DNA of 64,000 nucleotides from Isoetes taiwanensis (taxonomy: Eukaryota; Streptophyta; Lycopodiopsida; Isoetales; Isoetaceae): the NCBI GenBank assembly GCA_021234155.1, contig JAJEKV010000075.1, positions 1,304,001 to 1,368,000 on the forward strand. The letters are read 5' to 3'. A model generated the notes under the pieces. It saw only the letters and a program-made list of their open reading frames with translations, ran no database searches and had not been told where the DNA came from. The position numbers were made by a program, and so were the translations under genes. Below, piece after piece: positions 17,970-63,719 of this stretch (positions within the stretch are counted from its first letter, which is position 1; each line of letters begins with the position of its first letter).

Positions 17970-18116
17970 AAGAACATTTTTATAAGAAAGATGAAGGAAG
18001 GAAGGAAGTATATTTTAACGTCCGCGGAGACCAAACTTGATCTATGAGACGGTACATGCAGTACATAAAGCAGATAAAACTACACCAAAAAGACAAATGC
18101 TACTATACAATGTGTC

Positions 18117-18170
18117 CCTACTACTGGGATGAAAAAACCCCCACATGGGAGGAAAAACCCTGGTAGTAGG
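18117..18170 (-). promoter_or_regulatory. ENE-like triple-helix hairpin in LINE B1 3' UTR
   Basis: On the minus strand: arm CCTACTAC, CA, GGG, five U, a CC.. GG stem with a CCCATGTGGG apical hairpin, six U, CA, CCC, A, arm GTAGTAGG. Outer arms 8 bp and perfect; the two U-runs face each other. It begins four bases after the ORF2 stop and lies about 100 bases before the TTCC tail. Confidence 0.6.
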
Positions 18171-18173
18171 CTC

Positions 18174-18761: not shown

Positions 18762-18985
18762 CAAAGCACTCGGGGGAAGATATTGTGTATCCATGCTGGT
18801 GACCTTGTGGAAATATGCAAGATGTCTGCGCATAGCGGAATGTTGCAGGGGCCAGAACCCAGTCTCATATAGCAAAATCTGATAAGGCACCATGTCCTTG
18901 ATACCTAGGCTGTATGTTAAGAAGGCCTTTTGCACCCTCTCTAGCTTATCCCAGGTGTTCTTGCTAATTGCTGGACCCCAGACCT

Positions 18986-20180
18986 CTACCCCATACAACA
19001 ATCTTGGTTCAACGAGTGCTGCTGCGAGCAGTGTGCTCGTGCCCGATCACATAGGTCTATTCTGTAGCAGCTATTCTGCATAGCATACAGGGCTTTCCAT
19101 CCCGCGCTAACCCGTCTTTCCACACAATCATCCCATAACATGCTAGCGCAAAAGTCGATTCCAAGATACTTGAAGGTTCTTACAACATCCACCTTCTGTC
19201 CTCTGTAATAGAGATCTGGGATATCATCTTTGCGAGGAGAGAGGACCGCCGGAGCTTAGTTTTTGCAGGTTTCACCGTCATTCTGTTGTGTCCGCAGGAA
19301 CCCACTAAGAGCGTCCAAATGCTCTTGCATACTCCTGGCTGTATGGGATAGCAAGTCTACATCGTCTGCATAGAGCAATTGCCTTATACTGTATGCCTTT
19401 GGTAGCTGCGGGCCACCGCCCCCATGTTCTTGCATCCAGGTCTCCAACTTGTCAATGTAGAGACCAAAGAGCGTTGGAGATAATGGACATCCCTGTTTAA
19501 CCCCTATGGTGCTAGCAACTCGCTGATCTGATGCAGGCAATGTAGCATATATCCCATCATAGAGTCTATAGATGAATTTTGTAAGTCATGTGGGGCATGC
19601 GGCCTTTGCAAATCTTTGCCACAACAGGTCTCGAGGGACCGTATCATATCTTGATCTTGAAATCTCTAAACAAAGAAGATGCAGTCCGCCGCGCGTGCAT
19701 TGCGTAGCTTCCATAAGGATTCTCGAGAGAAATATATGGTCGATTGTGGAGTGGGCGTGCGAAACCCCGCCTGGCCAACTGCACGCACTCCAGCTTCCTC
19801 AGCCCACTGAGTTACCTTCTTCTCCACTACACCTGCTAAAAGCTTTGCGGTAATGGGCTCACCATGATCATGCGGTAGTTAAGCGAATCATCCCTATTAC
19901 TGTCTTATGAATTGGGGTGACCTTGCTAACCATCCACTCCCCCGGGAGGCTCTCCCTTATGGCCTGGTTAATGATCACTGTCAGAGGCCCTAGCAAAGCT
20001 GGCCCACCCCATTTCAATAACTCGGCTTGAAGTCCCCGCAAGTCCTTCGGCTTTGCCATTAGCCATGTGTCTAAGGCCCTGTTGGATGTCTTCCTCAGGT
20101 GAGCTGCAAACATTTCTCCTACGATCTGGAACCCCAAAGCCGGTGCTCTGGGGATCATACAACTCCTCCAAGCGATGCAT
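18986..20180 (-). pseudogene. LINE B1 reverse transcriptase
   Basis: RT boxes in order: LLKWGGPALLGPLTVIINQA then SKVTPIHK (20,100-19,900), a damaged middle, GVKQGCPLSPTLFGLYIDKL (about 19,500) and the catalytic YADDVDLL (about 19,375), then FKYLGIDF (19,170) and VEVWGPA (18,990). YADD is intact. Frames change at least five times between 20,180 and 18,986, so no active enzyme can be made. Confidence 0.75.
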
Positions 20181-20634
20181 CCACCGGTCTATGGTAATAT
20201 TGTGGGTGGTTGATGCCTCTTGTACAACACCCTACGCCCGAGAAAGGCTTTCGCTCGGTCATCAACAAATCAAACATGCGGCTGCCGATGGTGCGCATGT
20301 ATGCGCATGCTTTTTGGATTTCAAGAATGCTCTATAGTCTGAATGGCCTCTTTGCGCATGGCTGTGGATCTGAGACGAGGCGCAATTGGGTCTTTAGAGC
20401 CTTGCACTCAGCGTCAAACCAGGGATTACGAGGAATCTAGCGGTGTCCATTCGCGGCGATCCTCGCTAGGCTGGCGTGAGTAAAGCGCGTTTACAAGCCA
20501 CTCCCACCGATCATGTAACGTGCAAAGGGCATCAATCCCCTGCAGTTCACGTTCCAACACAGACTCATATTCTGCTTTCTTTCGGTAGTCGGGGGTGTAT
20601 CTCAATCCCTGATGGTTTCTACTCTGTGATTGCG

Positions 20635-21460
20635 CTACTGAGTGCTCCCAATCCAAAGTGACATAAAGTGGATAGTGGTCCCACAAAGCCTCCTCATCTC
20701 CTCGTTAGGTGTGCCAATTGAGAGCTTGCTGATCATGTCAAGTCCTACCACTGGAGCAAGGTGATAGTCTACCACGCTAGCTCCACCATCATGTCTATCG
20801 CTCTTGCAAGTAAAACCCCCTGATTGCGGCCATCTGATCATACCATTGCACACTACCATGTCAAAGACCTGACAGAGTTGAACCAACTCCCTTCCAAAGG
20901 CGTTGGTGGATCAGATCTTGAGACTGCCCGGCATGTTGGGGTGCAGCCGTTTCAAAGACGAGTGGGTCGAGAATCGGCCTCTCCTGGAAGGTAACCGACC
21001 TGCCCGGTTGTGCGGTCGCGGGCATTGAAATCTCTAACAAGAGCACATGCCCTTCTTTGGCGATATTGCTTTATGTCATCATACGAGATCTCTATAAGGC
21101 ATTTGTACATCCGTATGCGCCTCCGGACTGGTAGAACTTAGAGGTGCATGGGGTATATAACGAAGATGCAATAAACAATGGGCGATCTTTGAGGCTCGAT
21201 ACTCTCACCCACAGTAGCGGTTAAGTGCCGTCGGCCTTGTGGAGCGAGACCGTGGCTGCTATAGCATCTTTGAAATAGCATGCCACCCCTCCATACCCTA
21301 AAACTGCCATGGCGGCGCATTAGCAAGCAAAAGCACTGGTATCCCGGGATGTCCGGGTAGGCGATGCCCACGATATTCCCATGTCTCTTGCAAGAAGATG
21401 ATGTCCATACACATAGCGATCCCAACAAGGCGCTGCCCTTCTTCTAGGGGAATCCCCTAC
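20635..21460 (-). pseudogene. LINE B1 endonuclease
   Basis: Minus-strand pieces in changing frames: MDIIFLQETW (about 21,400; Glu box), DMVVCNGM...GGFTC and ASVVDYHLA (about 20,860-20,750; the SxxDY/H-type C-terminal box with Asp-Tyr-His). Typical of EEP endonucleases that prime LINE integration. Stops and shifts throughout. Confidence 0.6.
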
Positions 21461-21546
21461 AGTTCCATGATACAAGTCGGAGACACTGTCCCTATGCTGC
21501 CTGTGGCGGTTGTCCCGCACCGGCTTAGGGAGGTTGCGGGGGCCGT

Positions 21547-22135
21547 TCAGTGGTGCCCAGCACCGGGTCCCCGGCTGTTGCATCCGTTTTTGCCGCCTCG
21601 AGGTGAAAGGTCTAGATGTCCCCGGCCCCATCGCCACTTGCCTCTCAAGCATCTTGTTGGCGGAGGTACAAACACCTTCATCTTGCCATTAACCACCGAT
21701 CCCCCTGCCTGTCTGACTTGTCTGATTTTTGTGAAATCCTCTCGTCTCTCCTTTTGTTGCACTGGAGTAAGATCTGTGTCCAAGTATATTGATGTCCCCT
21801 TCAACCGGCTAGCGCGTTGCAGCAATAGAGTCTTCGATGCCTGGTCCAACACTGTGAATTTGAACAGTCGGGGTCTCATATTTGGCCCCCCGACTCTAGT
21901 CGGTTTCTCACCCCCAAATCTTTGCGGTTGTAGTGTCGACTGGGGCATTAAGCTTAGCCCGTGAGATCTTCCCCATGCTCTTCGGGCAAGCCCCGGACAA
22001 TGAGGTTCAGCCGACGGGATTGGCGATCCTGCTCCTCGCGAAGGACCTGCCTGATTCCCTGGGCCACCTCTGCCTCTGGCATTGGGCGCACTGTTGATGC
22101 TGCCTCCGGGGCAGTACACAAGGAGCCCAAAAATG
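21547..22135 (-). pseudogene. LINE B1 ORF1 (RRM-type)
   Basis: First part: QGIRQVLREEQDRQSRRLNL, IVRGLPEE (coiled-coil end and RRM strand 1). After a frame change: FKFTVLDQASKTLLLQRASR, LKGTSIYLDTDLTPVQQKER, the C-terminal part of L1-type ORF1 proteins. Such proteins chaperone the LINE RNA. The N-terminus is cut at about 22,135. Confidence 0.65.
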
Positions 22136-22815: not shown

Positions 22816-23419
22816 ATTACCTTCCCGTCTCTATTGATTTTTTTTTATTTTTTTTTTCTTTTCCAAAGGCCACTTAATCTAATGTGGAAACTCACATATG
22901 GACATATGAAATCCTCACGTATAAAGAACATGTATGATACAAGATCACATGATGAGGATTTACACAAGGAAGGGATACGTGTGTGTATATTTAAATTTAC
23001 CAAAAGGGTATTGTTATGCAATCGATCTGAGTAGCCGATCGGGATTCTCGGACAACATCCATGCATTGCATGCGTCGCATGCATATATCACATGCATTTT
23101 TGAGCCAGCTCATTCGGTGAGGAGATCGCTATTTATTGCGGAGTTCTTCTTTAACCTATCATTGGTGCTTTCTCATCTCTCAGCAGTTTCCTTGTTTCTC
23201 ACCCTCGATCCCTTAATTTTGTTATTTAGGTAAATGTTGTTTATCAAAATTCTCTCGTGGCATGCGTGACCAGCCTCTGGCTTTTCGACATTTTTATTTT
23301 CTTATTATTGTGTTTTAGTGGTGGTGATGTGCAGGTGATGCGCGACTACGTTCCTCCTTGAAGCGTGGGATTTTTATGGGAGCGTTTTAGCAACCTTGCA
23401 TTTGTTTAAGCCCCTTGCC
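22816..23419. other. No recognisable gene
   Basis: Contains a T-rich tract at 22838-22862 and alternating GCATGCAT words near 23060-23090. No feature supported. Confidence 0.45.
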
Positions 23420-23486
23420 AGCTTATCACTAGGGTTTTTCCTTGAAAACCCGAAAGGGCAAGGTTTATTAATCTTGATGATAAGCT
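23420..23486 (+). promoter_or_regulatory. ENE-like hairpin, GAAA-loop copy
   Basis: Arms AGCTTATCA (23420-23428) and TGATAAGCT (23478-23486) are perfect. Inside: GGG, five U (23435-23439), stem CCTT/AAGG, a GAAAA bulge opposite one C, stem CCC/GGG with a GAAA tetraloop, then UUUAUU. The parent element is not recognised; no TTCC tail follows. Confidence 0.6.
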
Positions 23487-25032
23487 CTCGACAGGTACAT
23501 TAGCCAACATTTGTAGCAAACAATTTTATTTTTGGGGTCCAGGCGATATAACTAGATATTCTCTAGGTTTTTTAAATTTTATGGGTACCTTATAATATGC
23601 AGCTCCATTCTATATCATTGTAGAAAAACTGAGATGAATGAAAAGCCTATCTATTGTTGTTGTATCTTGCGAGTCGCAGCACGAAAATGTTCAATTTTGA
23701 TCCTACGATGGTGATCAAGATTATAAATAAATATTTCACTGCATATTTAATTTCTTACTTAAAAAGAAATATGCACTACATGCACATGTGTCCTTGCTAC
23801 TGGATGGCTCGAATTGCTCTATGGATATGGTTCAGTATCCATCCTTGCCCAAAAAGGGCGTATAACAAGGAGGGAGGGGGATGAGAAGAAAAGTGCATGC
23901 TAAACCCGACATTTGATAAAGGTAAGAGGGCATGATAAAGATAAGAGGGCATTAATACCTATACAACATGCATACTGATAAAGCATAACATGAAAACCAG
24001 ACTGGAGAATTTATAACTGACCAAGTGTCATAATTAGCAGCCATTGTTGTTTGGTAACGTCTACTACCACCTCAATTATAATCATATCATGTGCTCGCCT
24101 TACTTCAAAGTAAAATCATTGCCTTTATAATCAACATAGCAAAATACTGCTTCGTTTATATCTTATATCTTTAGAACCTAAGCATTGCAACTAATTGCAG
24201 GGCCTGCAACAATATATCGAGGTACAAATTATTTGAATGATGCACCAGTAACCAACGTGCGGCCCCACTATTGGACCTTTACCATTGACATCAATATCAA
24301 TATAAAAAATCTCTCCTAAATATTACCCATTTCTCACTTGTCACATGGGAATAAATCTAGATTCCTTAGAAAAACTCGATTAAGATGGCACATGTGAAAA
24401 TATTAGAAGATTAGAAAGCTAAAATATCATGTTAGGCATCTCGATAGATAGTAAAGGCATTCCTTGATTTTAAAAGAGTCAAGAACTTGAGGTAGATTTG
24501 GAGCTTATAAATATTAGCCACTATAACATTAGAACACGAAACTCCAGTTTAAACAAGTCATTAAGAATTGAATTGAATTGAATTGAATTGTCTTTTACCA
24601 CCATGAAGACGAAATGACGTATGGGACCGAGACAAACAAACAAAGAAGATATAGTATGGACTAATGGAAAAATGCAAAACTATCTTCAATATTATTACAA
24701 ATAGCAAAGTATGGAGAGAAGCACAAATCAAGTGACTGAAGAAAATGTTGCATTCTGTTTAATTTGACATAGACAAAGTAGGATCTACGTTAGCTTCCTA
24801 CTCAAAGTACAATCTAGATACAAAAATCTTTGTTTTAGTTGGAACTAACATCTAAAAGTGTAGTCAAAGCATACATGAACTATTATTGGTGTAGATAGAA
24901 GGAAATGACATATATTCTAAGAACAATGGGAAAAAAATATGTACCTATTAACAAGACTATTTTGGATCCTTGTAATTTTTCCAAGAAGCAGCTTCAAAGC
25001 ATTCTCGAAGTTTATAAAGAATGACCACGAGT
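23487..25032. other. No recognisable gene; pentanucleotide repeat
   Basis: AT-rich. Holds a short GAATT repeat at 24565-24590. No coding or structural feature otherwise supported. Confidence 0.5.
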
Positions 25033-26720: not shown

Positions 26721-28640
26721 TCCTTTCACATTTGTTTACATCATTCAATTCCTATTAGAAATGCATGCTAGTATGCGAATGTGATGCATGATGGATATAA
26801 TAGCAAAAAATAATATCCCAGATCTTTGAAGCGGATAGTTGCAAATGGTTAACACAATATCTGATGCTTAATGGCTAATGCAATCTTCCATAGAAATGTC
26901 TATACTTCAATTGCTATGCCCTTTGTTGGCCTGGCATGCAACTATAGCTATGGAAGAAGGGGGAGGGGAAGGAGGGGGGAGGGGGAGGAGAGAAGTAGAA
27001 AATCCTATCACCATATTTTTTGGAAGCCCAATGTCTTGGTAAGGAGTCCTTGTAGATATGCTTCTTCATGTGCCAGTGGTTGCTGCATCTCACAAAAAGA
27101 AGAAGACAAAAAAAAACAATTAAAAGTTCCATATTCTATCCCATGAAGACTTACCACTGGCGCCCAAATGATTCTCGATGTCATGCAACAAATTGACCAA
27201 AACTCATAGCTACCCGGAACCTGAACTGGAACGACACCTTGAAATTTGGAACCAGAACATCCAACTTTCACAAAAAAAAAAGAAAAAGAAAAAAAATTGA
27301 CTATGGATTTGGGGAACACATTGAACTACTTTGCTAGCTTAAAAGTATAAAGGGCAATGAATAATATTGGTCTAATCAAATCTGTAAATTATGATATTGT
27401 GCAGTTTCGCGGAAAACCAACTATATCCGATCTTGGTTGGCCTTTCACCCCTAGCCACGAGTCGTCCCCGTATTCTGCTACATACGTGGGTTCGGTCCTC
27501 GAAGGCCTGTTATAGCTCTCTTCAACCTGCTCGGATAGAATTCAAGCAATATGCCCCTGCTGTGAAGAGAGGGATGGGAAGAAAAGGACCACATTCCTGT
27601 TTCATTTTAGACTAAAATGTTTTTTTAATTTTTGCTATTAAGAACGATGTCAGAAACAGTGTTTGAAACGTCTAAAAATGTTCGGAACACCGTTCCCGGT
27701 AGATAACAGTTTCAAAATAGGAACAAATATTTCCGGAATGTGCCACCTCTCGGAACGTATTCGAAATCGGAACAACGTTCAGAATGACATTCCCAGTAGC
27801 TATGCCAAAACTGCTTGGGACCGTGTATCACAACTTTCCTTTGCATTTCTCTAGATTAAATGGTCCATGTCTAAGTTGGTCCCATATTAAAATACTAGTA
27901 ACTTCCATAGCTCTGCGTCTGCTCCCCCAATCACAACCGCTGCCTGCTTCCCTATCTACTAGGTAGAGAACCGTTATGGGCAAGGAGGGATTCGAAACCC
28001 AACACCGTGGTTCGTAGCGCTAATCCTCTGACAGGCTCGAACGCACCTATCGCTATGTACTGGAGGAAAAGATGATTGCCACATTTTTTTTTAATCATTT
28101 TATTTTGCTAAATAAGATTGGACTTATTTCAAAATGTCATCTTCTAAAAGAATTTAAAAAATTCAAAATTCCCACCATATTTTCATATCACGTTTAGGTT
28201 TGCCTTCGCATGGCCAGTTGGCTCCGCTTCTACACATACTTCTTCTCTGCCAGCTCCGGTTTCTTGTGAGGAAATAGTAAGGAGGAGCAGACAATTTTAA
28301 GCCATAGCAGCACAGTGGTTTTATTCCTCTACCCCGGTAAGCAATATCGTCTCTCTTCTTTTCTCTCTAAAGCATCTTACTTTGCCGATTCTCTCCTTTA
28401 TGACGCAGATCAATCGGCATCCTAAGCATGAGGAGTTTTAGGTCATATATCACCTTGTTAAAGTCTAGCCAGGGAGAAAGCAGCCCCATTAATTGTCTGG
28501 AACTGCCCGACACTTTTCCTTAGGTATTTCTAACTGCCAGTTTTGTTTATCATGCTATGTTTTTATTCTTCCTTGTATTTTGTTATCAAAACTTTCCAGT
28601 CAATATTGGAACATATGGCCTTCTCTATTAAGTGTATTTG
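26721..28640. other. No recognisable gene
   Basis: Includes a purine-rich GGGAGGGGAAGGAGGG tract (26960-26990) and a string of GTTC/GGAAC words (27660-27790). A tRNA-like piece near 27,990 is dealt with under rejected items. Confidence 0.45.
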
Positions 28641-32436: not shown

Positions 32437-32835
32437 TCCAGATATGATCAGAAATGTGTGGCCAGCACCACGAGCGCTTCAGGGTTTTCAGAGCGGTTTA
32501 TTGGCAGCCCGGAAATCTACAATTTTGCTTTGGAAATATGACTCAACCACATGCAAATCAGATATCTACTGAAAGGTCTTTGAGAGGGATTTCCAACGCA
32601 ACAAATTTCAGGTGAAACGGAGCTCTGGATCTCCAGATATGATCAGAAATGTGCGACCAGGACCGGAGCGCTTTAGGGATTCTGGGGGCCAGATGTGCAG
32701 TCCGGAAATCTGCGATTTTGACAAAGATATAAGCCACAATCAATGGCAAATCACATAGCTACTCAAAGATCGCTGAGAGGGCTCTCCATCGCAACAAATT
32801 TCAGCTGAAACAGACTTCTGGATCTCCAGATATGA
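32437..32835. repeat. About 195-bp tandem repeat, two units
   Basis: Both units hold TCTCCAGATATGA.CA, the words CCGGAAATCTGCGATTTTG or a variant, and CAACAAATTTCAG.TGAAAC. The right edge is fused to a family-A LINE ORF1 fragment. The same fused block is copied at 34716-35027. Confidence 0.7.
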
Positions 32836-34632
32836 GCAAGAACGCGTAGAGAGAGAACCTTTTGCTTTATCATTCTTGCCGATTATCGGGATGGAGTTGC
32901 TGGTTTTGCTCTCTCCAATTTTCATCTTCGTGATATTCAACGCAGAGAGCTTGACCTCCTCGCAACTCCTGCAATCACAAGAATTTACCTCCTCTGGGTT
33001 GAAGAAACCATTTGAATCTTTGATCTTGCATTTCTTTGCCGTCTTCTTACCCCTCAACTGGTACACCTCTAGGGATGTGGAGATTCCTTCCAAAGATTCA
33101 TTCAAAGCAAGCCCGGACTTGAAGGATTTTCTGTGTCTTTCAATAACGTGATCTTCTGCTTCCTCCCATCTTCTCATTGCGTGAATAACCAAAATATAGC
33201 ATCTGGGCATGATTAACATGCAACTTATTTACATAGATTGAAGCAAAGCTCTAAATTATTGATCTTTTGATTGCGACATGTTTTGGCAGAGCTTGTGGCT
33301 TTCGATTCCTATCTCGCCCATGTTGTTGCATGCACGGTTGCAAAAAAAGACCGGGCGGTGAATGTCGAACGGAGGAGGCACGGTCATTTGAGTCTCGGTC
33401 CCGCCGACAATTTTCTAATAAATAGCACGGTGGCTGAAGACACTGTTCTTAAAGCTACAGCAGTCCGTCTCTGTATGCCCTTGTTTGACTGTTATTAGTT
33501 TATACAATGTATTATCTAGCTCCTGCACGAAACCAAAAGTATTCCACATCCAATCTCTGTCATTGGCTCTCCCATCCGAATAGTCCTTGTCAATAGAAGC
33601 CATCTTTTCTCTGCATGCTAAGATCCCGACCTCATGCACTCCCATCTGAGAATGCTCTTTGCTTTACCCGGTCTCTTATAATTTCTAGGCCGGTGTAGAT
33701 TTCCTTCAGAGTCCCCCAAGCTTTGTCCCTCTTACTTTCCAACCAAAAAATTTGTGTCCATTCATCGTCCTCTTCTTTACTGCTTTGCTTGGTAGAAGAA
33801 TTTGCCTTGGTTCTCATTCTGATCAGAGTATCGCCGGACACAAACTAGAGATGGGGCAACAGAGCAAGACGAAAGAGCAACCGTTATAAAAAAAACAACG
33901 GGTCTTTCTTTCTTTTTTCCCATTTCTTGTTGGCAGAAGTACATAGAGCAAGCAGATGGAAGCAGCAAGATTTGTTTCTTTCTGTAGCCATGGCAGTGTG
34001 ATTAGTCAGGTTTTGAAAATTATGGCGAAATGTTTAGGTGTCTTATTACAGCTGATATTTTAAGACTGGGCTCTAAGAATAGTCTGGTGGGTTGGGCTTG
34101 TTCTAAGCCTAACTAGCTTGAAGGTAACTGTTTGAGCCTCATTAACCTTCTGCTATTATCTAGATTCTTGATTGGTTAAGCTGCTTGGAGGCAGAGAATC
34201 AGATTCATAAAAATAGGTGGCAGCTTCAGGAATAGTGTGGCAGCCTATTCCATTTATTGTTGCTTTCCTTTTAATGTTTTATGTATATATGGAAATTTCT
34301 ACGTATCTTTGCAGATGTGGTCAGGTTATTGGATTAAAAGTCTTGAAATTCAAGTTTGGGGAGACCTTGGATTTCACTTTCTGATGAAGGGTTATGTGGA
34401 CTGCTAGTTCTTGAATTTTTGCCCATATGGAAGCATGATGACCTGGAAGTTTCTCCAACAATGCACCATATTTTGGATCATCATTTAGGGTTGGGCTGAG
34501 GTCTAGTTGGATTTCAATGGATTCAAAAGCATGGGGAGCTAGGAGCTCTGCTACCTCTACGATGGGAATGCGTTCTCTTCAGGCATAAGGTTTGGGCAAT
34601 TACTTGTCTATATGTCCTTCTTTTTTATCCAG
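32528..34632. repeat. Segmental duplication, copy 1
   Basis: Blocks A (32528-33168), B (about 33430-33895) and C (about 33897-34632) are nearly identical to 34716-35362, 35455-35918 and 38870-39591. In copy 1 they are adjacent, except that 33169-33430 is unique filler. Confidence 0.85.
32836..33841 (-). mobile_element. LINE family A ORF1 5' fragment (copy 1)
   Basis: Minus strand: an N-terminal part (33841-33430) with TKQSSKEEDDEWTQIFWLES and IDKDYSDGRANDRDW, then filler, then HVIERHRKSFKSGLALNESL, YQLRGKKTAKKCKIKDSNGF, CDCRSCEEVKL (33160-32840), the family-A ORF1 region N-terminal to the DUF4283-like domain. The reading then runs into the 195-bp repeat. Confidence 0.7.
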
Positions 34633-34711
34633 GTTTTGGTTCAATTTATTCTACTAGTTTGCAGAGGATACTGGGAATTATTACTCGTGCTTAATCCAAA
34701 TCTGGCCAAAT
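33897..34711. other. Duplicated block C and spacer, no recognisable gene
   Basis: Block C (33897-34632) matches 38870-39591; 34633-34711 is unique spacer before block A'. No coding signal is convincing. Confidence 0.6.
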
Positions 34712-35027
34712 CTGGCTTTGGAAATATGACTCAACCACATGCAAGTCAGATATCTACTGAAAGATCTTTGAGAGGGATTTCCAACGCAACAAATTTCAGG
34801 TGAAACGGAGCTCTGGATCTCCAGATATGATCAGAAATGTGCGACCAGGACCGGAGCGCTTTAGGGATTCTGGGGGCCAGATGTGCAGTCCGGAAATCTG
34901 CGATTTTGACAAAGATATAAGCCACAATCAATGGCAAATCACATAGCTACTCAAAGATCGCTGAGAGGGCTCTCCATCGCAACAAATTTCAGCTGAAACA
35001 GACTTCTGGATCTCCAGATATGAGCAA

Positions 35028-35839
35028 GAACGCGTAGAGAGAGAACCTTTTGCTTTATCATTCTTGCCGATTATCGGGATGGAGTTGCTGGTTTTGCTCT
35101 CTCCAATTTTCATCTTCGTGATATTCAACGCAGAGAGCTTGACCTCCTCGCAATTCCTGCAATCACAAGAATTTACCTCCTCTGGGTTGAAGAAACCATT
35201 TGAATCTTTGATCTTGCATTTCTTTGCCGTCTTCTTACCCCTCAACTGGTACACCTCTAGGGATGTGGAGATTCCTTCCAAAGATTCATTCAAAGCAAGC
35301 CCGGACTTGAAGGATTTTCTGTGTCTTTCAATAACGTGATCTTCTGCTTCCTCCCATCTTTTAATCAGTCTGATACTTGCGTTGGAGTTTTCTCTAAGCC
35401 CATTCCACTGGACAATCAGGTTTTTGACCTTTGCTAACAGTTCGTCCATGAATGCCCTGAAGACACTGTTCTTAAAGCTACAGCAGTCCGTCTATGTATG
35501 CCCTTGTTTGACTGTTATTAGTTTATACAATGTATTATCTAGCTCCTGCACGAAACCAAAAGTATTCCACACCCAATCTCTGTCATTGGCTCTCCCATCC
35601 GAATAGTCCTTGTCAATAGAAGCCATCTTTTCTCTGCATGCTAAGATCCCGACCTCATGCACTCCCATACAGAATGCTACTGCTTTCTGCTGGTCTCTTA
35701 TAATTTCTAGGCCGGTGTAGATTTCCTTCAGAGTCCCCCAAGCTTTGTCCCTCTTACTTTCCAACCAAAAAATTTGTGTCCATTCATCGTCCTCTTCTTT
35801 ACTGCTTTGCTTGGTAGAAGAACTTGCCTTGGTTCTCAT
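35028..35839 (-). mobile_element. LINE family A ORF1 5' fragment (copy 2)
   Basis: As in copy 1 but without filler: the frame 35839-35492 (MRTKASSSTKQSSKEEDDEW ... LDNTLYKLITVKQGHT) continues after one stop into DCCSFKNSV and MDELLAKVKNLIVQWNGLRE, ending at CDCRNCEEVKLSALNITKMK before the 195-bp repeat. Continuity here shows that the filler in copy 1 is secondary. Confidence 0.7.
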
Positions 35840-36111
35840 TCTGATCAGAGTATCGCCGGACGCAAACTAGAGATGGGGCAACAGAGCAAGACGAAAGAGC
35901 AACCGTTATAAAAAGAACAACGGGTCTTTTCCCAACCCTTTTTCCCTCCAGAGCAAGAGTTAACTGCCAATGATGATATCCTCTTTCCCCCGAGAAAAAT
36001 CCCCAGAGATGACAGACCGTACCTGAGAACCGTAAAAAACCAATCCTAAGAACTCTAACTTGACCCTACCCTGACAGCCCCTTAGATCTGGCACGGGGTC
36101 GAAGAACCAAA

Positions 36112-43843: not shown

Positions 43844-44393
43844 ATGGATCTAGTTGAAAAGGAGGAAGCTCAAAAAACCAATGAAGATCAGAAGGAATTA
43901 GATGAAATTGTTCCATGCTCAATCAAACAAGAAGAGAAGAAAAATGACTTTAGGTTCTTCACCAGGTCACCTACGGAAGATCTGTGCTCGGAGGGAATTG
44001 ATGATACATTTGCAGGAACTGAGGAACTGAAATTTAGCAACATGGAAGAGGAGCTTGTTACTGCTCCAACAACAGTTAACAAGGAGGTTTTTTATACTCC
44101 TCTAACAACCAAAAAAAGAAGTAAGAAAGTATATTTCTCTGACAGTAGCCCGACTCTAAATTTGAGAGTTCAGGCTAGGAAGTCATACCCTGCATAATGA
44201 TGTACTACCTGGAATATGAGGGGAATAAAAGGTCCCCTCAAAAGAAAAAGAGCTATAATAGCCTCCAGGGATATGAAAACTGATATAATTCTGGTACAAG
44301 AACACAGATTGCCAGCATTTAAAGCTACTAGATTGGGGAGTTGGGTATTTCCAAATGAAGATGTTGTATGGTCGCTGCTGATGGCACCAAAGG
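43844..44393 (+). mobile_element. LINE family A-related ORF1 end and endonuclease start
   Basis: The 117-codon frame (acidic, then KKRSKKVYFSDSSPTLNLRV, QARKSYPA stop) resembles the end of the family-A ORF1. Four bases later the endonuclease opens: CTTWNMRGIKGPLKRKRAII, DIILVQEHRL. It breaks off at about 44,393 inside a codon and switches to copia polyprotein. Confidence 0.65.
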
Positions 44394-44399
44394 GGGTAT

Positions 44400-45561
44400 G
44401 TGCCCTCTATTGTAAAAAATTTGATTTCTGTAAGTCAGTTAGTGGATCTGGATTATCAGGTCACATTTGACAAAGTTGTATGCAGAATTGTTAAAGATAA
44501 TAAAGTGTGTTTTTTGGGTCAAAGAGTTGGAGATCTATTTGAGCTAGACACTTTTGAGAATATTCCAGCAATAAATAATATATCAATCCCTAATTTTAAG
44601 ATTTGGCATGAACGATTAGGGCATACAAACATGAACAATGTAAAAGCTTTGAGCAAACTTGGATACATTAATGCAGCTGATGAGGATCAAAGGAATTTTG
44701 TTTGCAGAGGTTGCATGATAGGCAAAAGCACAAGACTTCCATTTTGCAGAAGATCAAAGCGAGCTGAAACTCCATTGGAGCTGATACACACAGACATCTG
44801 TGGTCCTCTTAATGTGAAAAGCTACTCTGGGAAAAGGTATTTCATCACCTTCATAGATGATTATACTAGAAAAGCCAAATGCTATTGCTTGTCAAAAAAA
44901 TATGAAGCCTTAAGAGCATTTAAAGATTTCTTGGCTGAAGCAGAACGTGAAACAGGTTATAAAATAAAATGCTTACGATCAGACCGGGGTGATGAGTACA
45001 TATCAAAAAAATTTAAAGCTTTTTGCATTGAAAAAGGAATTAGGAGGCAATTAACATGCAGGTACTCTCCTCAGTGAGATGGAGTAGCGAGGAAAAAATA
45101 GAACTTGCCCTGAATCTTGCGGTCGAGCTATGTTGAAGCATGCAGGATTGCCAAATATGCTTTGGGAAGAGGCTTTAAAAACTGCAATTTATGTGCAAAA
45201 CAGGGTTCCAAGTACAAGTATAGATGGGGAAATTCCAGAATTCTTATGGACAAAAAGAATGCCAACATATGATAAGTTTAGGGCTTATGGCTGCTTGGCC
45301 TATGTGCATATTCCTGAAGAATTGAGAAACAAGTTGGACGACAGGGCTGTGGTTGCTTTTTTAATTGGATATGACGAAGAATCAAAAGCATACAGATTGT
45401 ATGCTCCAAGCAAGAGAAAAATACTTGTGAGCAGAGACGTTGCATTCTCGGAAGAGCAGTTATACAAAGATGCCAGGAACTTGAACATACAGGGAAATGA
45501 CAAGTCAATTGAAGTAGGAAAAATGCATTCAGCAATGATGATGAGAGTTCTGATGGAATAG
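44400..45561 (+). pseudogene. Copia GAG pre-integrase and integrase
   Basis: GAG pre-integrase: IWHERLGHTNMNNVKALSKL with the His of the HHCC zinc motif and CRGCMIGKSTRLPF. Integrase core: LIHTDICGPL (first catalytic Asp), FITFIDDYTRKAKCY, LRSDRGDEYISKKF (second Asp). An in-frame TGA at 45,076 follows RYSPQ; the GVAERKN-type box is frameshifted; the frame reopens at 45,130 with AGLPNMLWEEALKTAIYVQN and YGCLAYVHIPEE, through KRKILVSRDVAFSEE. Confidence 0.8.
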
Positions 45562-45641
45562 TACAGGATAATATTGGAACTAATAATCTAAACCATGAGG
45601 AGGAACAAGAAAACATTGCTCTTCCCAAGCAAAGGAAAAGA

Positions 45642-46370
45642 ATGACAGAAGCAGAAAAACTAAGAAAAGAGTTGGAAGATAAGGGAATCGATATCAATGA
45701 ACATGGCAGAGAGATTGATGGAAAAAGTAAGAGATTAGAAAATATAGAAGAAGAAATGATTCCCCACTTGATGGCAGCCATGGAAAGTAATCTGCCACAA
45801 ACATTTGAAGAAGCTATGGCAAGTGAAGATCATAAATTTTGGCAAGATGCAATGGATGAAGAAATGGCAACATTCAATAGGACTGAAACTTTTGAAGTAG
45901 TAAACAGGCCTGAAAATAAGAATATTGTTGGGAACAAATGGATTTATAAGATCAAGGAACTCCCTGATGGAGGAAAAAAGTACAAAGCCAGGCTAGTAGC
46001 TCAGGGTTTTACTCAGCAAAAGGGCATTGACTATAATGACACTTATTCTCCCATTGTGAAGATGTCCAGCATAAGAATGATGCTAGTATTAGCAAACACA
46101 ATGAATTGGGAAGTCCACCATATGGATGTCGATCTTGCATTTTAAATCACGAGAATTAGAAAGAGGAGATATACATGAGACCTCCTTTGGGGTTTGAAGA
46201 AAAGGGAGACAATTTGGAAGCTTAAGAGAGCGGTATATGGGCTGAAACAATCACCCGGGGCACGGTATTCATGCATGGATAAGTATTTAACCCACCAAGG
46301 ATTTATGAAATTTAATGGTGATGGGAATTTGTATATGTACAAACAAAGATAATCATTTTGCCTCATTGCT
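45642..46370 (+). pseudogene. Copia reverse transcriptase, N-terminal half
   Basis: Reads TFEEAMASEDHKFWQDAMDE, NIVGNKWIYKIKELPDGG, YKARLVAQGFTQQKGIDYND, TYSPIVKMSSIRMMLVLA and HHMDVDLAF with the catalytic Asp, then a stop at 46,145. Downstream the YMRPPLGFEE / AVYGLKQSPGA region can still be followed in two other frames to 46,370. Confidence 0.8.
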
Positions 46371-47369
46371 TTGTATGTCGACGATTGTGTAATGTTCTCA
46401 AATAGTTTAGAATGCTTGAAGACTTGCAAAGGGTTGCTAAGGTCCAGATTTAAGATGACTGACCTAGGTGAGCTAAAAAGATTCTTAGGAATCCGAGTGA
46501 TCAGAAATAGAAAGCAGAAAATTATGAGTCTGAATCAAGCAGATTATATACAAGGTGTACTTGAAAAATTTAACATGACAGAATGCAAAATGGCAAATAC
46601 TCCTTTGGTACCAGGGCACAAAATAAGCAGCAAAATGTGTCCTGCTACAGAAGAAGAGACAGAGGAAATGAAAAGAGTTCCTTACAGGAGACTAATAGGT
46701 TGTTTGATGCATTTGGCAGGAGCTACAAGGCCAGATATATCCTTTGCTGTAAATCTATTAAGTAGATATATTAGCAACCCTGGGAGACAACATTGGACTG
46801 CTGCAAAACGAGTTTTAAGGTATTTAAAAGGGACATTGAATCATGGAATTAATTTCAGTGATAAAGGATGCAAGCTTGAAGCTTTTGTAGATGCAGATTG
46901 GGGAGGGGATGCAGACCAAAGGCATTCTACATCAGGCTATGTCATGATGCTAGGTGGAAATCCAATAAGTTGGAAATGTAAAAAACAAAGCACAGTAGCA
47001 TTGTCAAGCGCAGAAGCTGAGTATACTGCAATAACTCTAGGATCCAAAGAAATAATCTGGTTAAGAAGAATGCTAGAGGAAATTGGAGTCAAAGATCATG
47101 AGGCAACTGTACTATGGTCTGACAGTGCTAGTGGGATTGCTATGACTCAAAACCCTGTTCTTCATGAGAGGGCAAAGCATATTGAAATGAAACAGCACTT
47201 TATTAGGGAGATGGTTCAGAAGAAGCTTATTTCAGTCAGATATATTCCAACAGAAAACCAAATAGCTGATATACTAACTAAAGCACTCAGAGAGCCAAGG
47301 TTTAATATGTTAAAAGATTTGATGAGAATTCACAGTCCTGTGAGCAACAACACAATGGAACAGTCTTGA
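46371..47369 (+). pseudogene. Copia RT C-terminal half and RNase H
   Basis: A 332-codon open frame starting MYVDDCVMFSNSL (YVDD catalytic box), then KMTDLGELKRFLGIRV, PYRRLIGCLMHLAGATRPDI, and RNase H: FVDADWGGDADQRHSTSGY, ALSSAEAEYTAI, LWSDSASGIAM, ERAKHIEMKQHFIREMV. All RNase H acidic residues are visible. This is the best-preserved coding stretch in the window. Confidence 0.85.
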
Positions 47370-53300: not shown

Positions 53301-53419
53301 ATTTTAAGGAGGATGTGGACATCGTTTTTAGTGTGATATGCTATGCAGGTACATGAATTATGTTAGAATTGATGATATTAAGACATGATGTTTGGTGAAA
53401 TTTGGGGCCAAATTTCCCT

Positions 53420-53597
53420 TTAATCCGGGTAGCAATGGGCTTGCTGCACCCATGTAATTTGGGTCCCATAGGTCGATTGGCCTCCGCGGACGATAAAAGA
53501 ACCTTCCTTCCTTCCTTCCTTCCTTTAGGATTTTCTCCTAAATGACCGATTGGTCTCCGTGGACGATAAAAATACCTTCCTTCCTTCCTTCCTTCCT
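53420..53597 (+). mobile_element. Two LINE family B 3' tails in tandem
   Basis: First tail (to 53,521): ATCCGGGTAGCAATGGGCTT, GGGTCCCATAGGTCGATTGG, CCTCCGCGGACGATAAAA, then TTCC repeats. Second tail (53,524-53,597): TTTAGGA-TTTTC-TCCTAAA hairpin, TGACCGATTGGTCTCCGTGG, ACGATAAAAATACC, then TTCC repeats. Both match the 3' end of copy B2 at 63,650-63,719. Confidence 0.8.
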
Positions 53598-54290: not shown

Positions 54291-55640
54291 ATAAATTTAT
54301 TTATTCATAAATGGATTTGTTGATGAAGTAGCCGCTTGCCTCTTAGGGACTTTGTGGCTTAGTAATCACCGCGGCTAGTGCCATGAAAGGGCCTACTTTC
54401 TTCTCACTTTGAGCAAACAAAGTATATTGGACAATAAGAATTTAGGGTCCATATACGTTTGGAAATATAAGCATTTGGGGCTTTTCTCTGTAATTTGTTT
54501 GGCGCCTAAAATGGTCGGCTGCATTTAAGCATCTTTTAATCCGACAGATCGTTCCCAAAAAAGAAAGGAATGCTGATATTATACAAACATGTAGATTTGC
54601 AATACAATGCTTTTGAACAAGGTATGCAGTGATTCTTGGGAGACTCTATATATCAAAACAAACATATGGCCAAAATGAAGTGGCTTTCTTATTGAGCGTT
54701 CCAAAAAACAAGTACAACAGCAGAATAGTAACAATGAATGACCATAAACAAATCCGAGCCAAACATAATTAAAAACCTCGGAATTATACAGTTACCGAAG
54801 GTGTTATAAAACCACACAAACTCAAAGATTGAAATCTTATCATCTGGACTAAAAACCCCGCCCTTTCGGATTTTCGGGAAAAATCATGAAGATAAAAAAT
54901 GGACTAAGTGAAATAACCGATGGAGATGAATTCTGAACTAGCAGCAATATAGGACTCTGAATATAACTGAACATGATAAGATCCGCCATAATAAGCAAAA
55001 TGATGAAACGTCTCCCAATGCCATCAGATTCGATGCATCAAATATCAATTTCCCCTGCTCCAAGAACTGCCAACTCCAAAAAGTGTCAAGAATAAAAAGG
55101 ACCCGTAAGCAAATTGAAAGCTCACAAGAAAACCTGCGTCAAATTGTTAGTGAAGAAAAAAGAAAAGTTCTACATTAAATCAACATGCACAAGACAAGAA
55201 CATGATCCAAACATAAAATGTAGAGACAAAATACGGAGAAAGTTCAAACAAGAACATCCGCTCAGCCAGAAAAAACTATTGTCAGCTATAGCGGGGAAGA
55301 ACATCCATCCAACAGATCCAGAACAATAAGGCGAGGAAGGCCTCCGCCTAGCCAGGATAAACACTACAAACTAGCACGAGAAAGATCATCCGCCCATGAA
55401 AAAAGGAAATTAGAGAATGAAAGACAAGAACACAAGTCAAAAAATTCAACAAGTAAAGAAGCAGAAGAGTGGAGATATAAGAAAGGGTAGGGTGGGAGGG
55501 AAAACTAGAAACAAAAAAGAAGAAGGAAAGGAACGCTCAAAGAGAAGGCCGATGGGAAAGAACTGGAAAGGTAATGACAATATATGGAGACAAAGAAAAA
55601 AATCTGTTAAAAATAGGCCAATGGTACGCCGTCTTCCCAA
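54291..55640. other. No clear gene; recombinase 3' end repeat and purine-rich sequence
   Basis: 54,632-54,678 repeats the end of the tyrosine-recombinase remnant (55,675-55,719). 55,080-55,640 is A/G-rich on the plus strand; its Lys/Arg-rich frames look like low complexity. Confidence 0.45.
55330..55348. repeat. Hairpin followed by a CAGGATA word
   Basis: GGCGAGG, AAGG, CCTCCGCC folds with a GGC/GCC and GAGG/CCTC stem. It is followed by TAGCCAGGATAA, recalling the hairpin plus GGATAGCGAGG units at 60.67 and 60.87 kb. Confidence 0.35.
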
Positions 55641-59770: not shown

Positions 59771-61660
59771 TAGAGAACAAAGAAAAGCCATGTTGAGACA
59801 CTCGGAATGTCTTCTCTGTTAGAAAATGCCCAGGGGTTCTCACATAGAAAACCTATAAGTTCTAGCCCAGACAGGCTACAATGTCTCAGAAAACATGACA
59901 ATCCCTCATGCCAACCAGCCTTCTTGAGTTTATAAAGGTAGAAGCTACCAAAAAGTTCGAAATGGACTTCAAGAATGCTTCTTCATCTCCACAAAGCAAC
60001 CACAATGCCCATAAGGCTAGACCATCCATTATTGCACGAGGGCCATCCACTTTGCATGAGGTCCAACTATAATATGCACGAGGGCCATCCACTTGGCACG
60101 AGAGCCAACCACCCCAGGCACAAGCAGTGCTCAAATTTGAAGGCTACCCCTAATTTTCTCGTGACAAACAAAAAAAATTCATGCCTTTTGGGTGACAAGA
60201 AGTCTTTTAATTTTAACCTTTCAAATGCAAGACAAAGATTCCAAATGACAGAATTTCTATAATTTCTATCTCCTCAAGAACTATGTCGGGCTGCTACTGC
60301 ATTTGACAACCTGAGCTTGCAAATGTGCTATTAGAGAATTTCTTCCTTATTTTTTTTATAGCTTAAAGAAGCCACTGCGATAATAAAATTTTGAAAACTA
60401 TGGAAATGCAAGGAGTAAGAAAAAGCAAGAAATCACAATAATATAGAGCAAATAATCTTCAGGTGACGAACTCTAGTTGAAGACAGCAGGAACTGCCATC
60501 AGGAACTGCCATCAGATGGCATGGCAGTTCTGCTTCTACAAGTGGCCAAACTATGGCAGATTTTGGAAAAGCAACAAATCAGGGAATACAGCAGAGGCCA
60601 GGGGCTGCACAGGCAAGGCAAATTCATTTGAGTAAAAAGTAGACGGAATACGTTACGGGACAGAGAGGCTCAGCCTCCGCCGTACACCAGGATAGCGAGG
60701 ACTGGACCCACCAACTGGTAATCTGGACTACTATAAACTCGAAACCATCACGAGAACAACAAAATTTTGTCCACCATAGAATAACAGTCAGCATGAAAAG
60801 ACATAATGCATATGTATATAAGTGTGGTATTTGTAGTCAAAAGGAGATCGGATACGCTTCTGGTTTGAGGGGTCTAACCCCCCAGCCGGATAGCGAGGGC
60901 ACGACCCTCCAACTGGTTCCCAGATCACCAAAATGACTGAAAATGAATAATAGCTTACAAGTGCTCTTACATCAAGTGCTTGAGGATGTGTTGCAGCTTA
61001 TGTGAAGACATCCATAGAGTAATCAAAAACCCTGTTTGGGGCTCTACAAGAAGTTTTGCAAACTGCAGAATGTTCAACAAAGTGGAGCGGGGAATAGCAC
61101 AATCAATTATGCTGCAGGCCTTCAGAAACTCGAAGATGAGGACGTTCATCTAATCAGGTTTTTTTTGCATTTGAATTGAATATCTAGTGACACACAAAAC
61201 AAGGGAAGGATTATACCATTATCTGCATAATCTGGATGTTTGATCTTTTCATTCTTTATCATCATTAGCTATAGATATAGATCTGCTATTGTAAGCTATG
61301 AAATTGGACGGATTCACTGCATAATGCATCAGTTTTATGAGCATAGTATATGCATGCTATGTATGAAATTAGGAAGGTTCTTTAGACGCTTTATATTAGT
61401 ATAAATCTGAAATATTAGGCAGTGAATACATAAGCTGGGGATTGTGCTAACATAGTGTAGTTAGAATATCTCAAGATTGGTTATAAACACAGACCTTTAG
61501 ATGTGTGATGTTATGTTGACACTAATTACTACATATTCATAGCTCCAGATTGGAGCTCTAATCAGTACTAATCAGTTTAGTTTAGGGTTTTTGCAGCCTA
61601 ACAATAATGGCGTGGGAAAAATCTAAAATCCAGAATGACGGGAAAAGGATCTGAAAATAA
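59771..61660. other. No recognisable gene; small repeats
   Basis: 60,036-60,112 holds GCACGAG.GCCA.CCACTT words repeated three times. 60,492-60,533 has a GGAACTGCCAT direct repeat and an inverted copy (ATGGCAGTTC). Two structured 65-bp units are listed separately. Confidence 0.5.
60661..60932. repeat. Two hairpin-bearing 65-bp units
   Basis: Unit 1 (60,661-60,725): GAGGC-TCA-GCCTC hairpin, then CAGGATAGCGAGGAC and CCACCAACTGGT. Unit 2 (60,865-60,932): GGGGT-CTA-ACCCC hairpin, then CCGGATAGCGAGGGC and CCTCCAACTGGT. The stems differ in sequence but both pair. Confidence 0.55.
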
Positions 61661-61667
61661 TATTGTG

Positions 61668-61747
61668 CATCAGTGAGCCCATTACTATTAAGGTTTTTCC
61701 TCGAAAACCCTTCGGGCGGGGTTTTTTAATAATGAGCGTCACTAATG
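61668..61747 (+). promoter_or_regulatory. ENE-like hairpin, UUCG-loop copy
   Basis: Outer arms CATCAGTGA...CATTA..TTAA and TTAATAATG...TCACTAATG pair with small bulges over about 22 nt. Inside: GG, five U (61,694-61,698), CCTC/GGGG stem, GAAAA bulge opposite C, CCC-UUCG-GG apex, six U (61,722-61,727). It lies 300 bp upstream of LINE B2 in the same orientation; no LINE B 3' block is attached. Confidence 0.65.
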
Positions 61748-62047
61748 TAGCCCAGGTCATAGACAGGGAAAGAGGGTTTGTAATGTGAACCGCACAAGAG
61801 GCAGCTCATAAACCCCACACAAATTGTTCAGTTAAAAGCTGATTGATAACGATGCATTACCGCACGGCCACGAAGCCGATGTAAAGCGGGGTGCTGGTAA
61901 TAATAGAAAAAAGTCAGCCTTCAGAAAAGGCTACATTAGAACAGCGTGATGTGCTAGTAGCGCCCTTTCAGGGAGCTCGCCCATGCTACACAAGTCCAGG
62001 GGCCTCAGGGAACAAGGGACAATAATGTATATTCTATTCTATTCTAT
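61748..62047. other. No recognisable gene; ATTCT repeat
   Basis: Ends in a short ATTCT array (62,031-62,055) at which LINE B2 begins. Confidence 0.5.
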
Positions 62048-63719
62048 ATATTCTATTGTTGCTTCGTGGATTTTGTGAATACGTTTGACATTGTGCCTCG
62101 GGAAAAACTATGGGCACGATTACGATAGCTGGGGGTTCCTGTAGATTTGCAGAATGCAGTGTACAGGCTATATGAAAGATGCTCGAGTCGGTTGCAGCTG
62201 ACAAGCCAACCATTTGATAGTAGTATAGAGGTTCATCAGGGATGCCCTCCCTCCCCAACATTGTTTGGGCTTTATATTGATCAATTGGAGAGCTGGCTTG
62301 CTGATAATGGGGGCGACGGAGCTCACCTTCTGCACCAGATCATCAGGCAGTTTATATATGCTGATGATGTGGATCACACACCAGCAAACATGCAATGAGA
62401 TCTCGACGCCCTGGACACATTCTGCCAAGCGACTGATATGCGCATCAACTTGGCCAAGACATGGTGGTTCTCATATCATCCTCACGTCAGTCGGGGATCC
62501 CCTTCTTCAGTTACCGAGGGCAGAATGTGGAAGTGGCATCCACATACAAATATTTGGGAGTGGAGTTTCCTTCTACTATGCACAAGGACACATCCATACG
62601 GCTACAAGTGAGGGCGGGCTAGAAGGCACTATATACAATGCAAAATAATAGTCATAGTGCAGAGTTGTATGATTGGGCCCATCAGTCACACGTGTTCAAG
62701 GTCTTAGTGGAGCCTGTCCTTTTATATGGGTTTGAAGTATGGGGCCCAGCAGTATCCCGTGCAGAAAGAAAGCCTTCTTGGTATGAGCACTAGGGGTGAA
62801 GTCCACAGTCCCATATCAAATTCTATTGCAGGAGATGGGATTCTTGCCTCTTCAGAGGGCGGCCCTTGATCGCCACATTGTCTATTTTCAGAAGGTGGTC
62901 AATATGGACGATGCTCGTCTCCCTAACTTAGCTTATATTATGGCAATGGGGCCGCAGCGCCTCAAGGCCTGCTAGAGGAAAAAAAGAGCTCAATGGTTGT
63001 CTAGATGGAGCACAGGTGCATACATGTGCAAACAGAGGCAGATTTAGTTTGAGGCAATATCTTGATGTTTGCTTCCTCAACAAGCTTTGGGATGCCAGTG
63101 CCCTTGAACAGGTCAAGATAACACACTACCAGCCCCGCATAAATCCCACATTGGAACGAGGCCCGCAATGCTACCTGCGTACCCACGTGCCTATGAAAAG
63201 GCGCAGACTCATTGCCTCCATTCGCACAGGGGCACACCATCTTCGAATTGAGATGGGCAGATGGATTGGTGAGCCACGCCAGGACAGGCTCTGTCAATGC
63301 TGCCAAATGGGAGTCATTGAGGATGAATATCATACCCTTCAAAGCTACCCCGACATATGATCAAATCCGGACGCGCTATACTGAGTTGGTCAGGCTTGGC
63401 CATCCGATACATGTGACATTAAGCACGGCTTCCGTACAGGTGCTGGGATCATACCTTCAGGAGGTTATGGACATGCGAGATCAGCTATGTTCTCAGGCAC
63501 ACACTTGACATGTATATATACATTTATTTCATGATGATGTATACTTGTACAGTTTGACAATATTCTTATTACTGCCACGATTTTTCCCTCGAAAACCCTT
63601 CGGGGTGGGGGTTTTTTAACCCGGACAGTAATAAGTTTGCTGCGCTCTTTCTAGGTCCCATAGGCCGATTGGTCTCAGTGGACGATAACTTCCTTCCTCC
63701 CTCCCTCCCTCCCTCCCTC
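62048..63719 (+). mobile_element. LINE family B, copy B2, 5'-truncated
   Basis: Plus strand. RT: CFVDFVNTFDIVPREKLWAR, VHQGCPPSPTLFGLYIDQLE, FIYADDVDHT (YADD), KYLGVEF region near 62,560, LLYGFEVWGPA near 62,735. C-terminal domain: HHLRIEMGRWIGEPRQDRLC, QCC, EDEYHTLQS. ORF end at 63,508; 3' UTR with an ENE-like hairpin; CATAGGCCGATTGGTCTCAG, TGGACGATAA and a TTCC/TCCC tail (63,691-63,719). Same family as B1, with different frameshifts. Confidence 0.8.
63565..63635 (+). promoter_or_regulatory. ENE-like hairpin in LINE B2 3' UTR
   Basis: Arms CTTATTACTG (63,565-63,574) and CAGTAATAAG (63,626-63,635), 10 bp perfect. Inside: five U (63,581-63,585), CCCTC/GGGGG stem, GAAAA bulge (63,591-63,595) opposite U, CCC-UUCG-GGG apex, six U (63,612-63,617). 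About 55 bases after the ORF stop and 55 before the TTCC tail. Confidence 0.7.

Follow-up and report, generated by a model that had tools for sequence, protein, structure and literature searches.

Which kind of RNA structure recurs among the repeats of a lycophyte genome, and what could it do for the transcripts that carry it? The question is raised by a 64,000-nucleotide stretch of Isoetes taiwanensis DNA (JAJEKV010000075.1:1304001-1368000), here called the window, which belongs to a genome of 1.66 Gb in 1,110 contigs. An earlier note on the window described a hairpin with two facing U runs, present in four copies, as a feature of one family of long interspersed nuclear elements (LINEs). It likened the hairpin to the element for nuclear expression (ENE). 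The analysis presented here reveals that the hairpin is spread more widely than first claimed: several families of LINEs carry it, and so do a Copia retrotransposon, a repeat of no assigned class and, in its 3' region, a host gene. By analogy with known examples, it may be an ENE-type RNA element that grips poly(A) and protects the RNA, a reading to which we assign a probability of roughly 0.7.

Hairpin copies in the window

A covariance model was trained on 24 copies from outside the window and then run on the window, where it recovers all four copies at the places given in the earlier note. These are the hairpins of LINE family D (63562-63640, plus strand, E 8.7e-14), LINE family A (18109-18176, minus strand, E 2.3e-12), repeat family B (23416-23492, plus strand, E 1.8e-10) and repeat family C (61681-61741, plus strand, E 1.2e-4), the last of which is damaged. 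The model also finds a fifth, B-like hairpin at 54828-54902 (minus strand, E 2.2e-6) that is absent from that note. A weak sixth match at 8484-8579 (minus strand, E 0.02), in which the U runs are broken, is probably due to chance.

The general layout is composed of an outer arm, NGG-UUUUU-CC, an upper hairpin, GG-UUUUUU-NNY-CC and the other outer arm. In the D copy, an outer stem and an unpaired A are followed by U5 opposite U6-AAY, an upper stem CCCTC/GGGGG, a GAAAA bulge and CCC-UUCG-GGG. The common layout is recognisable in all four copies, but only the core at 18109-18176 is intact. The lower helix of the D copy (63565) reads GA where GG is expected, the 3' U run of the B copy (23420) is interrupted by an A (TTTATT), and the C copy (61668) is missing the 3' strand of the lower helix compared with its relatives. 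The GAAAA bulge and tetraloop stem, which the earlier note placed in three copies, are optional, being absent from copy A and several other families. The exact core pattern occurs once in the window, at 18109-18176, and not at all in 100 shuffles. Single-sequence folding gives z-scores of -3.96 for D, -2.29 for C, -3.05 for B and -1.73 for A; the numbers of shuffles that fold as well as the native sequence, of 200 each, are 0, 6, 3 and 14, respectively.

Each of the four copies has its own repeat family: LINE A, LINE D, the tailed repeat C and the unclassified repeat B. At E 1e-5, BLAST similarity between C and D spans only 51-53 nt and that between B and C only 43 nt, in both cases over the hairpin itself, and B and D have no match. 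The assignment of the hairpin to a single LINE family is abandoned. The LINE D copy (62056-63719, plus strand; start approximate, by eye) is 5'-truncated and frame-broken, has the reverse transcriptase (RT) motif QFIYADDVD with RVT_1 at E 0.0012, below the Pfam cut-off, and ends in a CTTCC/CTCC tail (63690-63719, plus strand). The LINE A copy (17993-22098, minus strand) is 88% identical to L083:4730-8852, has the RT motif LLYADDVD with RVT_1 at E 3.4e-10, and ends in a TTCC tail (about 17993-18008, minus strand). The repeat B unit occupies 23021-23679 on the plus strand and is without a microsatellite tail. The repeat C unit of about 1 kb (61057-62052, plus strand), in which no RT was seen, terminates in a (TATTC)n tail (about 62029-62052, plus strand).

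Abundance of the core in the genome

The core was searched for as GGTTTTTCC-N{3,32}-GGTTTTTTNNYCC, that is, GG-U5-CC..GG-U6-NNY-CC, with the reversed pattern as the control. There are 11,392 matches genome-wide versus 6 for the reversed pattern; such counts are of copies, not of independent events. Variant patterns behave alike: the class with a gap of 12-19 has 1,044 matches versus 3 in the control, a gap of 3-10 has 291 versus 1, a gap of 23-50 has 244 versus 7, the pattern including the GAAAA bulge has 3,789 versus 0, and the A-type pattern has 851 versus 0. The pattern for the exact window form of B has one match, the window copy itself. The abundance of the pattern thus exceeds chance. 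A plasmid scan with the pattern gave no match. Eight matches in viral contigs were treated as chance because their best model E was 0.13.

Covariation of the paired arms

The comparison set was built from 144 short loci and window pieces, of which 116 have the full core and 96 are distinct. It was set against 78 prokaryotic matches of the same pattern, from among the matches listed; this control is not a rate control, and one of its members (L177) is a real element. In the best register, left position -(k+1) pairs with right position +k and 6.80 of 8 outer pairs form, whereas the next best (offset 4) gives 5.40, the others give at most 4.0, and the 78 control matches give 2.95 of 8. Pair -1/+1 forms in 92 of the 96 distinct copies (AU 35, CG 26, GC 21, UG 9, GU 1) versus 38 of 78 in the control. 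Position -2, which is unpaired in the common register, is A in 93 of 96 copies versus 17 of 78. The upper pairs number 2.70 of 3 in the copies and 1.09 of 3 in the control. Purine stands opposite purine at -1/+1 in 165 of the 11,392 genome-wide matches; independence of the two sides would predict about a quarter, given the margins of the 96 (left purine 60, right purine 38).

Twenty-four representatives were hand-picked from the 96 for varied arms and upper stems. On these, RNAalifold yields the same fold without being given a structure, and for 12 of the 16 pairs there is at least one sequence with both partners changed. Across 384 cells, 94.5% are paired, compared to 39.3-53.9% with slid partners, and the covariation measure is 0.569 versus 0.136-0.168; this comparison favours the fold, because the fold was derived from the same sequences. 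None of 500 shuffles matches any of the five measures. A null that keeps the tree and the changes per branch, a simplified home-made version of a published approach, was applied to the 96 sequences with 400 null sets. Pair -1/+1 is above all null values, five of the 16 proposed pairs reach E<0.05 within the proposed set, and six of the ten top-ranked among 946 column pairs are proposed pairs.

Each arm is also matched to its own partner. When arms were swapped between clusters formed greedily, the total for own arms was reached in 2 of 20,000 permutations with 19 clusters, 0 of 20,000 with 13 and 127 of 20,000 with 8. Single-linkage clustering, which gave five clusters and 1,157 of 20,000 permutations, was rejected; it failed because the arms chain, 89 of the 96 distinct arm pairs being joined into one. 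The outer arms had been called unrelated in sequence yet self-pairing. They do pair with their own partners, but ATTACT/AGTAAT-like arms are common to many families.

In distinct contexts, G.U outnumbers A.C by 65 to 37 (P 0.007), which indicates that the U-rich strand is the folded one. The GG/CC and CC/GG pairs flanking the U loop are present in 23-24 of the 24 representatives; they are fixed by the search pattern in most loci, but not in the B and C loci. Copies of B and C were fetched by DNA similarity; these too have the two U-rich runs opposite each other in an internal loop, and 40 of 40 loci match the model, three of them being in its training set. The flanking helices are preserved by covariation. 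RNAalifold, the slid-partner control and the tree-based null all bear out the note's view of covariation as the mark of an RNA fold, and covariation is present in the larger alignment, where its absence had been named as grounds for refutation.

Host elements of the hairpin

In all five cases with a coding frame (LINEs A, D and K, Copia E and a GH18 gene), the hairpin is on the sense strand. Judged from the LINE tails, the 3' LTR and the GH18 stop codon, it lies near the 3' end in the LINEs, Copia and the GH18 gene. The ENE architecture proposed in the note is upheld, with U runs opposite each other between G-C pairs, on the sense strand and near LINE 3' ends. The median distance from hairpin to tail is 75 nt in LINE D (range 60-77; tail found in 14 of 20) and 119 nt in LINE A (range 72-125; 11 of 20), and the distance is 306 nt in repeat C (12 of 20). 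Of 63 tailed copies, 49 have 4-7 consecutive A in the 18 nt that precede the tail; family C, which accounts for 12 of the 63, has only A2 there. The tail unit varies among close relatives (ATTCT, TTCC, TTCTCA and TTATTC in L001-L128), as if easily altered at insertion.

The K family is a LINE with a 599-residue open frame of RT similarity (RVT_1 E 5.9e-6, under the Pfam cut-off), a hairpin 649 nt beyond this frame and a TTCC tail. The E family, represented by five loci (L089-L093), is a Copia long terminal repeat (LTR) retrotransposon. The Copia E element at L129:3647-8484 has LTRs that are 95.8% identical, rve and Pol_BBD domains above the Pfam cut-off and gag models just below it. Its hairpin is located at L129:8121-8159, 117 nt upstream of the 3' LTR.

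A second 3'-terminal segment, GTCC..AGGCC..GGTCT..GGAC, is common to LINEs A and D and is followed by TAAAA and the microsatellite. In LINE D it reads GGTCCCATAGGCC..GGTCTC..GTGGAC (63654-63683, plus strand) and, by eye, resembles the LINE A 3' end, with GTCC/GGAC and AGGCC/GGTCT able to pair. This segment is a possible candidate for an RT recognition hairpin. Repeat C terminates in a comparable GTCC..GGGAC-TTAA (by eye). The window also matches the 3' ends of LINEs A and D at 53419-53597, beside which the covariance model recognised no ENE-like hairpin.

Repeat B was considered as an LTR element and rejected: no direct repeats of at least 60 nt are found near B in window positions 12000-36000. 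The B locus L086 has 39-nt direct repeats at the element ends, and the 5' ends vary among B copies. Open reading frames (ORFs) upstream of B in L086 looked transposase-like and had no Pfam match above the cut-off; this stretch is not common to the window, L130 or L131. At some loci (L048, L130/L088), the repeat B copy adjoins an inverted piece of its own 3' end.

A GH18 chitinase gene with the hairpin

The host gene is a GH18 chitinase gene at L132:1434-2876 (G000:C75:123933-125375), whose 3' region contains an ENE-like hairpin. It has a 398-codon open stretch with the first Met at codon 61 and matches PF00704 at E 2.5e-64. The hairpin is on the same strand as the gene, about 190 nt past the stop codon. 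Behind it, the 3' region recurs in two further tandem copies, giving three in all. The last copy follows a partial GH18 frame, and neither of the two further copies was seen to have a GH18 frame of full length. The covariance model scores all three hairpins at E 1.6e-11 or better, one of them (L099) being in the training set. At loci L134-L137, no clear host gene was recognised by eye.

A search with the GH18 3' region gave 40 scored matches of 147 candidates, four of them on contig C75. The other 36 cover only query positions 165-254, which is the hairpin, at 78-83% identity, and the best of these is in a LINE 3' end. A larger LINE insertion was rejected as the source of the GH18 hairpin, as the LINE similarity extends no further than about 25 nt from the core in either direction. 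The GH18 flanks have no homology to LINEs, their scores being equalled by 26 to 184 of 200 shuffles.

A foreign Copia relative

The control member L177 (CAKZGI010000341.1) is labelled as an uncultured Trichormus metagenome-assembled genome and contains a Copia element whose gag and pol frames are both intact. It is therefore taken as plant contamination, and it is probably from a fern. The source may be Azolla, the host of the Trichormus symbiont. Compared to the Isoetes Copia E element at L129, pol is 50-57% identical along two long matches and the DNA is 70-75% identical. The covariance model finds the L177 hairpin at E 1.5e-7; L177 is outside the training set, though its E-family relatives L089 and L093 are inside. 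In this hairpin, the U runs, the upper stem and the unpaired A are kept, the apical loop is 1 nt shorter, and TG stands in place of the AA that follows the 3' U run. Where the outer stem is paired, the four letters that differ from L129 form two double compensatory changes, from C-G to U-A, at -1/+1 and -4/+3.

Relation to known ENEs

The ENE of the PAN RNA of Kaposi's sarcoma-associated herpesvirus (KSHV) lies near the 3' end of the RNA. A double ENE (dENE) possesses two U-rich internal loops with a short helix between them. The dENE form was not seen here: the copies printed have one U-rich loop, and the second internal loop, where present, is GAAAA or AAACAA (by eye). The Isoetes hairpin resembles the PAN element in being near the 3' end and differs in that PAN is a viral noncoding RNA; the two are likened without a sequence comparison. 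PMC10078130 describes the PAN ENE as sequestering the poly(A) tail.

Among the closest known systems is Evade, the Arabidopsis Copia93 element, described in PMC12501189. There, the U tracts and neighbouring G-C pairs of the ENE are needed for a poly(A)-dependent triple-helix transition, and the RNA is stabilised against deadenylation. Like Evade, the Isoetes element is a hairpin with a U-rich internal loop between G-C pairs, and in Copia E it is similarly placed between the pol frame and the 3' LTR. Evade has four U-rich tracts in that description, whereas the hairpin here has one pair of tracts and an unpaired A, and its hosts also include LINEs, an unclassified repeat and a host gene. Tycowski et al. 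2016, as summarised in PMC12501189, reported about 200 ENE motifs, mostly from plants and fungi and strongly tied to LTR retrotransposons. The association with transposons is alike, with LTR retrotransposons as the main hosts in that summary. As described in PMC11411715, MALAT1 and MEN-beta have a stem-loop whose U-rich internal loop forms a triple helix with an A-rich tract encoded at the 3' end; the hairpin is similar here, whereas the encoded tract is only the A4-A7 that 49 of the 63 tailed copies have. Our literature search, to which the tables of Tycowski et al. 2016 were external, found no ENE in a LINE or plant host gene. The anatomy of the hairpin is of a known kind. What sets this variant apart is its near-invariant unpaired A, the number of its copies and its presence in a host gene and in LINEs that do not end in poly(A).

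Proposed mechanism and alternative explanations

In the proposed mechanism, the outer stem, unpaired A, GG/CC pairs and upper stem would hold the U5 and U6 runs face to face. A poly(A) tail added downstream would thread between the U runs as U.A-U triples. The triple helix would block deadenylation and decay, thereby raising the chance of mobilisation. In LINE RNAs, poly(A) would follow the encoded microsatellite but would not survive insertion, as target-primed reverse transcription is expected to begin at the repeats. Gripping of poly(A), the triple helix and the stabilisation are all suggested by the behaviour of the known ENE family.

Several results weigh against this interpretation. The LINE copies end in TTCC- or TATTC-type repeats, so that any poly(A) of their RNAs is invisible in the DNA. 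The free minimum-energy fold has both ENE helices in 16 of the 96 copies; with the U runs held open, both helices form in 49 of 96, at a median cost of 1.4 and up to 8.0 kcal/mol. Poly(A) may thus be required for the ENE state to prevail. When all 946 column pairs are considered, -1/+1 alone reaches E<0.05 under the tree null, and a tree null on 70 sequences likewise yields one pair. The covariation sample excludes the 28 of 144 loci without the full core, including the window pieces that hold copies B and C, and conservation of the U runs is not independent evidence, as the core is fixed by the search in most loci. The GH18 arms have 3 of 9 positions paired in the common register; by eye, they pair better in a register shifted by one, with A opposite A. 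Rfam gave only 20 weak matches on 16 loci, all below the gathering score, and on the window it matched no hairpin copy, the sole match at gathering being an rRNA fragment. Within families, the majority fraction is no higher in the hairpin than in its flanks (B, 0.900 versus 0.893/0.900; C, 0.953 versus 0.937/0.953). This lack of excess conservation is expected of dead copies, yet it provides no support, and constraint is visible only between families.

The hairpin might instead be the 3' recognition site from which LINE RT is primed at the microsatellite tail, with U runs that bind protein and not poly(A). LINE RTs read 3' hairpins, and within each LINE family the hairpin stands at a similar distance upstream of the tail. 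However, it is also present in Copia, which replicates without target-primed reverse transcription, in repeat B, which has no microsatellite tail, and in the GH18 3' region, and by eye the other 3'-terminal segment of LINEs A and D fits the role better; we regard this explanation as unlikely. Somewhat less likely still is a MALAT1-like intramolecular triple helix, in which the U loop would grip the encoded A4-A7 (as in GGACGNTAAAA) before the tail to give a protected or RT-ready 3' end without poly(A). The frequency of this A run in tailed copies speaks for it, but family C has only A2, repeat B and Copia end otherwise, and 4-5 A are short for the purpose.

Two further readings dispense with the triple helix. 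Another protein-binding or nuclear-retention hairpin could merely resemble an ENE, since U runs could bind a protein specific for U-rich RNA and the triple helix is argued here by analogy. Facing U runs between G-C pairs near a 3' end are nevertheless the layout that was tested in Evade (PMC12501189), and such a coincidence seems improbable. Most improbable is that the copies are DNA inverted repeats, from cruciforms or insertion debris, without an RNA role. Their near-perfect arms are palindrome-like and families B and C have no excess conservation, but this origin would not account for the asymmetric loop, the A at -2 in nearly every copy, the G.U excess over A.C, the compensatory changes and the constant sense strand. 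The poly(A)-gripping ENE is thus preferred.

This interpretation can be extended, tentatively and with the odds against it, to an ENE that acts as a portable module. A single-domain form, its unpaired A almost invariant, would have been passed between LINEs, Copia and other repeats of this genome and taken up by the GH18 gene. In microsatellite-ended LINEs, it would either protect a poly(A) that is never copied into DNA or grip the encoded A tract, thereby shielding the RNA 3' end and at the same time offering it to RT.

Other features of the window

A DUF4283 ORF (17124-18014, minus strand, E 4.9e-14) lies immediately downstream of the LINE A tail and probably belongs to another LINE type. 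Long open stretches at 44382-47369 (plus strand) resemble a Copia polyprotein with the RT motif YVDD. A 107-nt fragment of bacterial-type large subunit rRNA (27433-27539, minus strand, Rfam RF02541) is probably organelle-derived. A direct duplication at 32521-35929 has a spacing of 2.0-2.2 kb and segments that are 95-99% identical. A MYB-like domain that falls just under the Pfam cut-off, the GH18 chitinase and the Copia elements mark the genome as plant-like.

Significance

Descriptions of ENEs concern a few viral and animal RNAs and, among plants and fungi, chiefly LTR retrotransposons. The present genome alone has over eleven thousand core matches, and many of those inspected are in LINEs that lack poly(A) ends. 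Two questions thereby become testable: whether such LINE RNAs receive poly(A) past their tails, and whether different transposon classes came to share an RNA-protection device through exchange or through convergence. Mutations can be aimed precisely at the -1/+1 pair, the unpaired A and the two U runs. The chitinase gene would illustrate how a cellular gene can gain mRNA stability.
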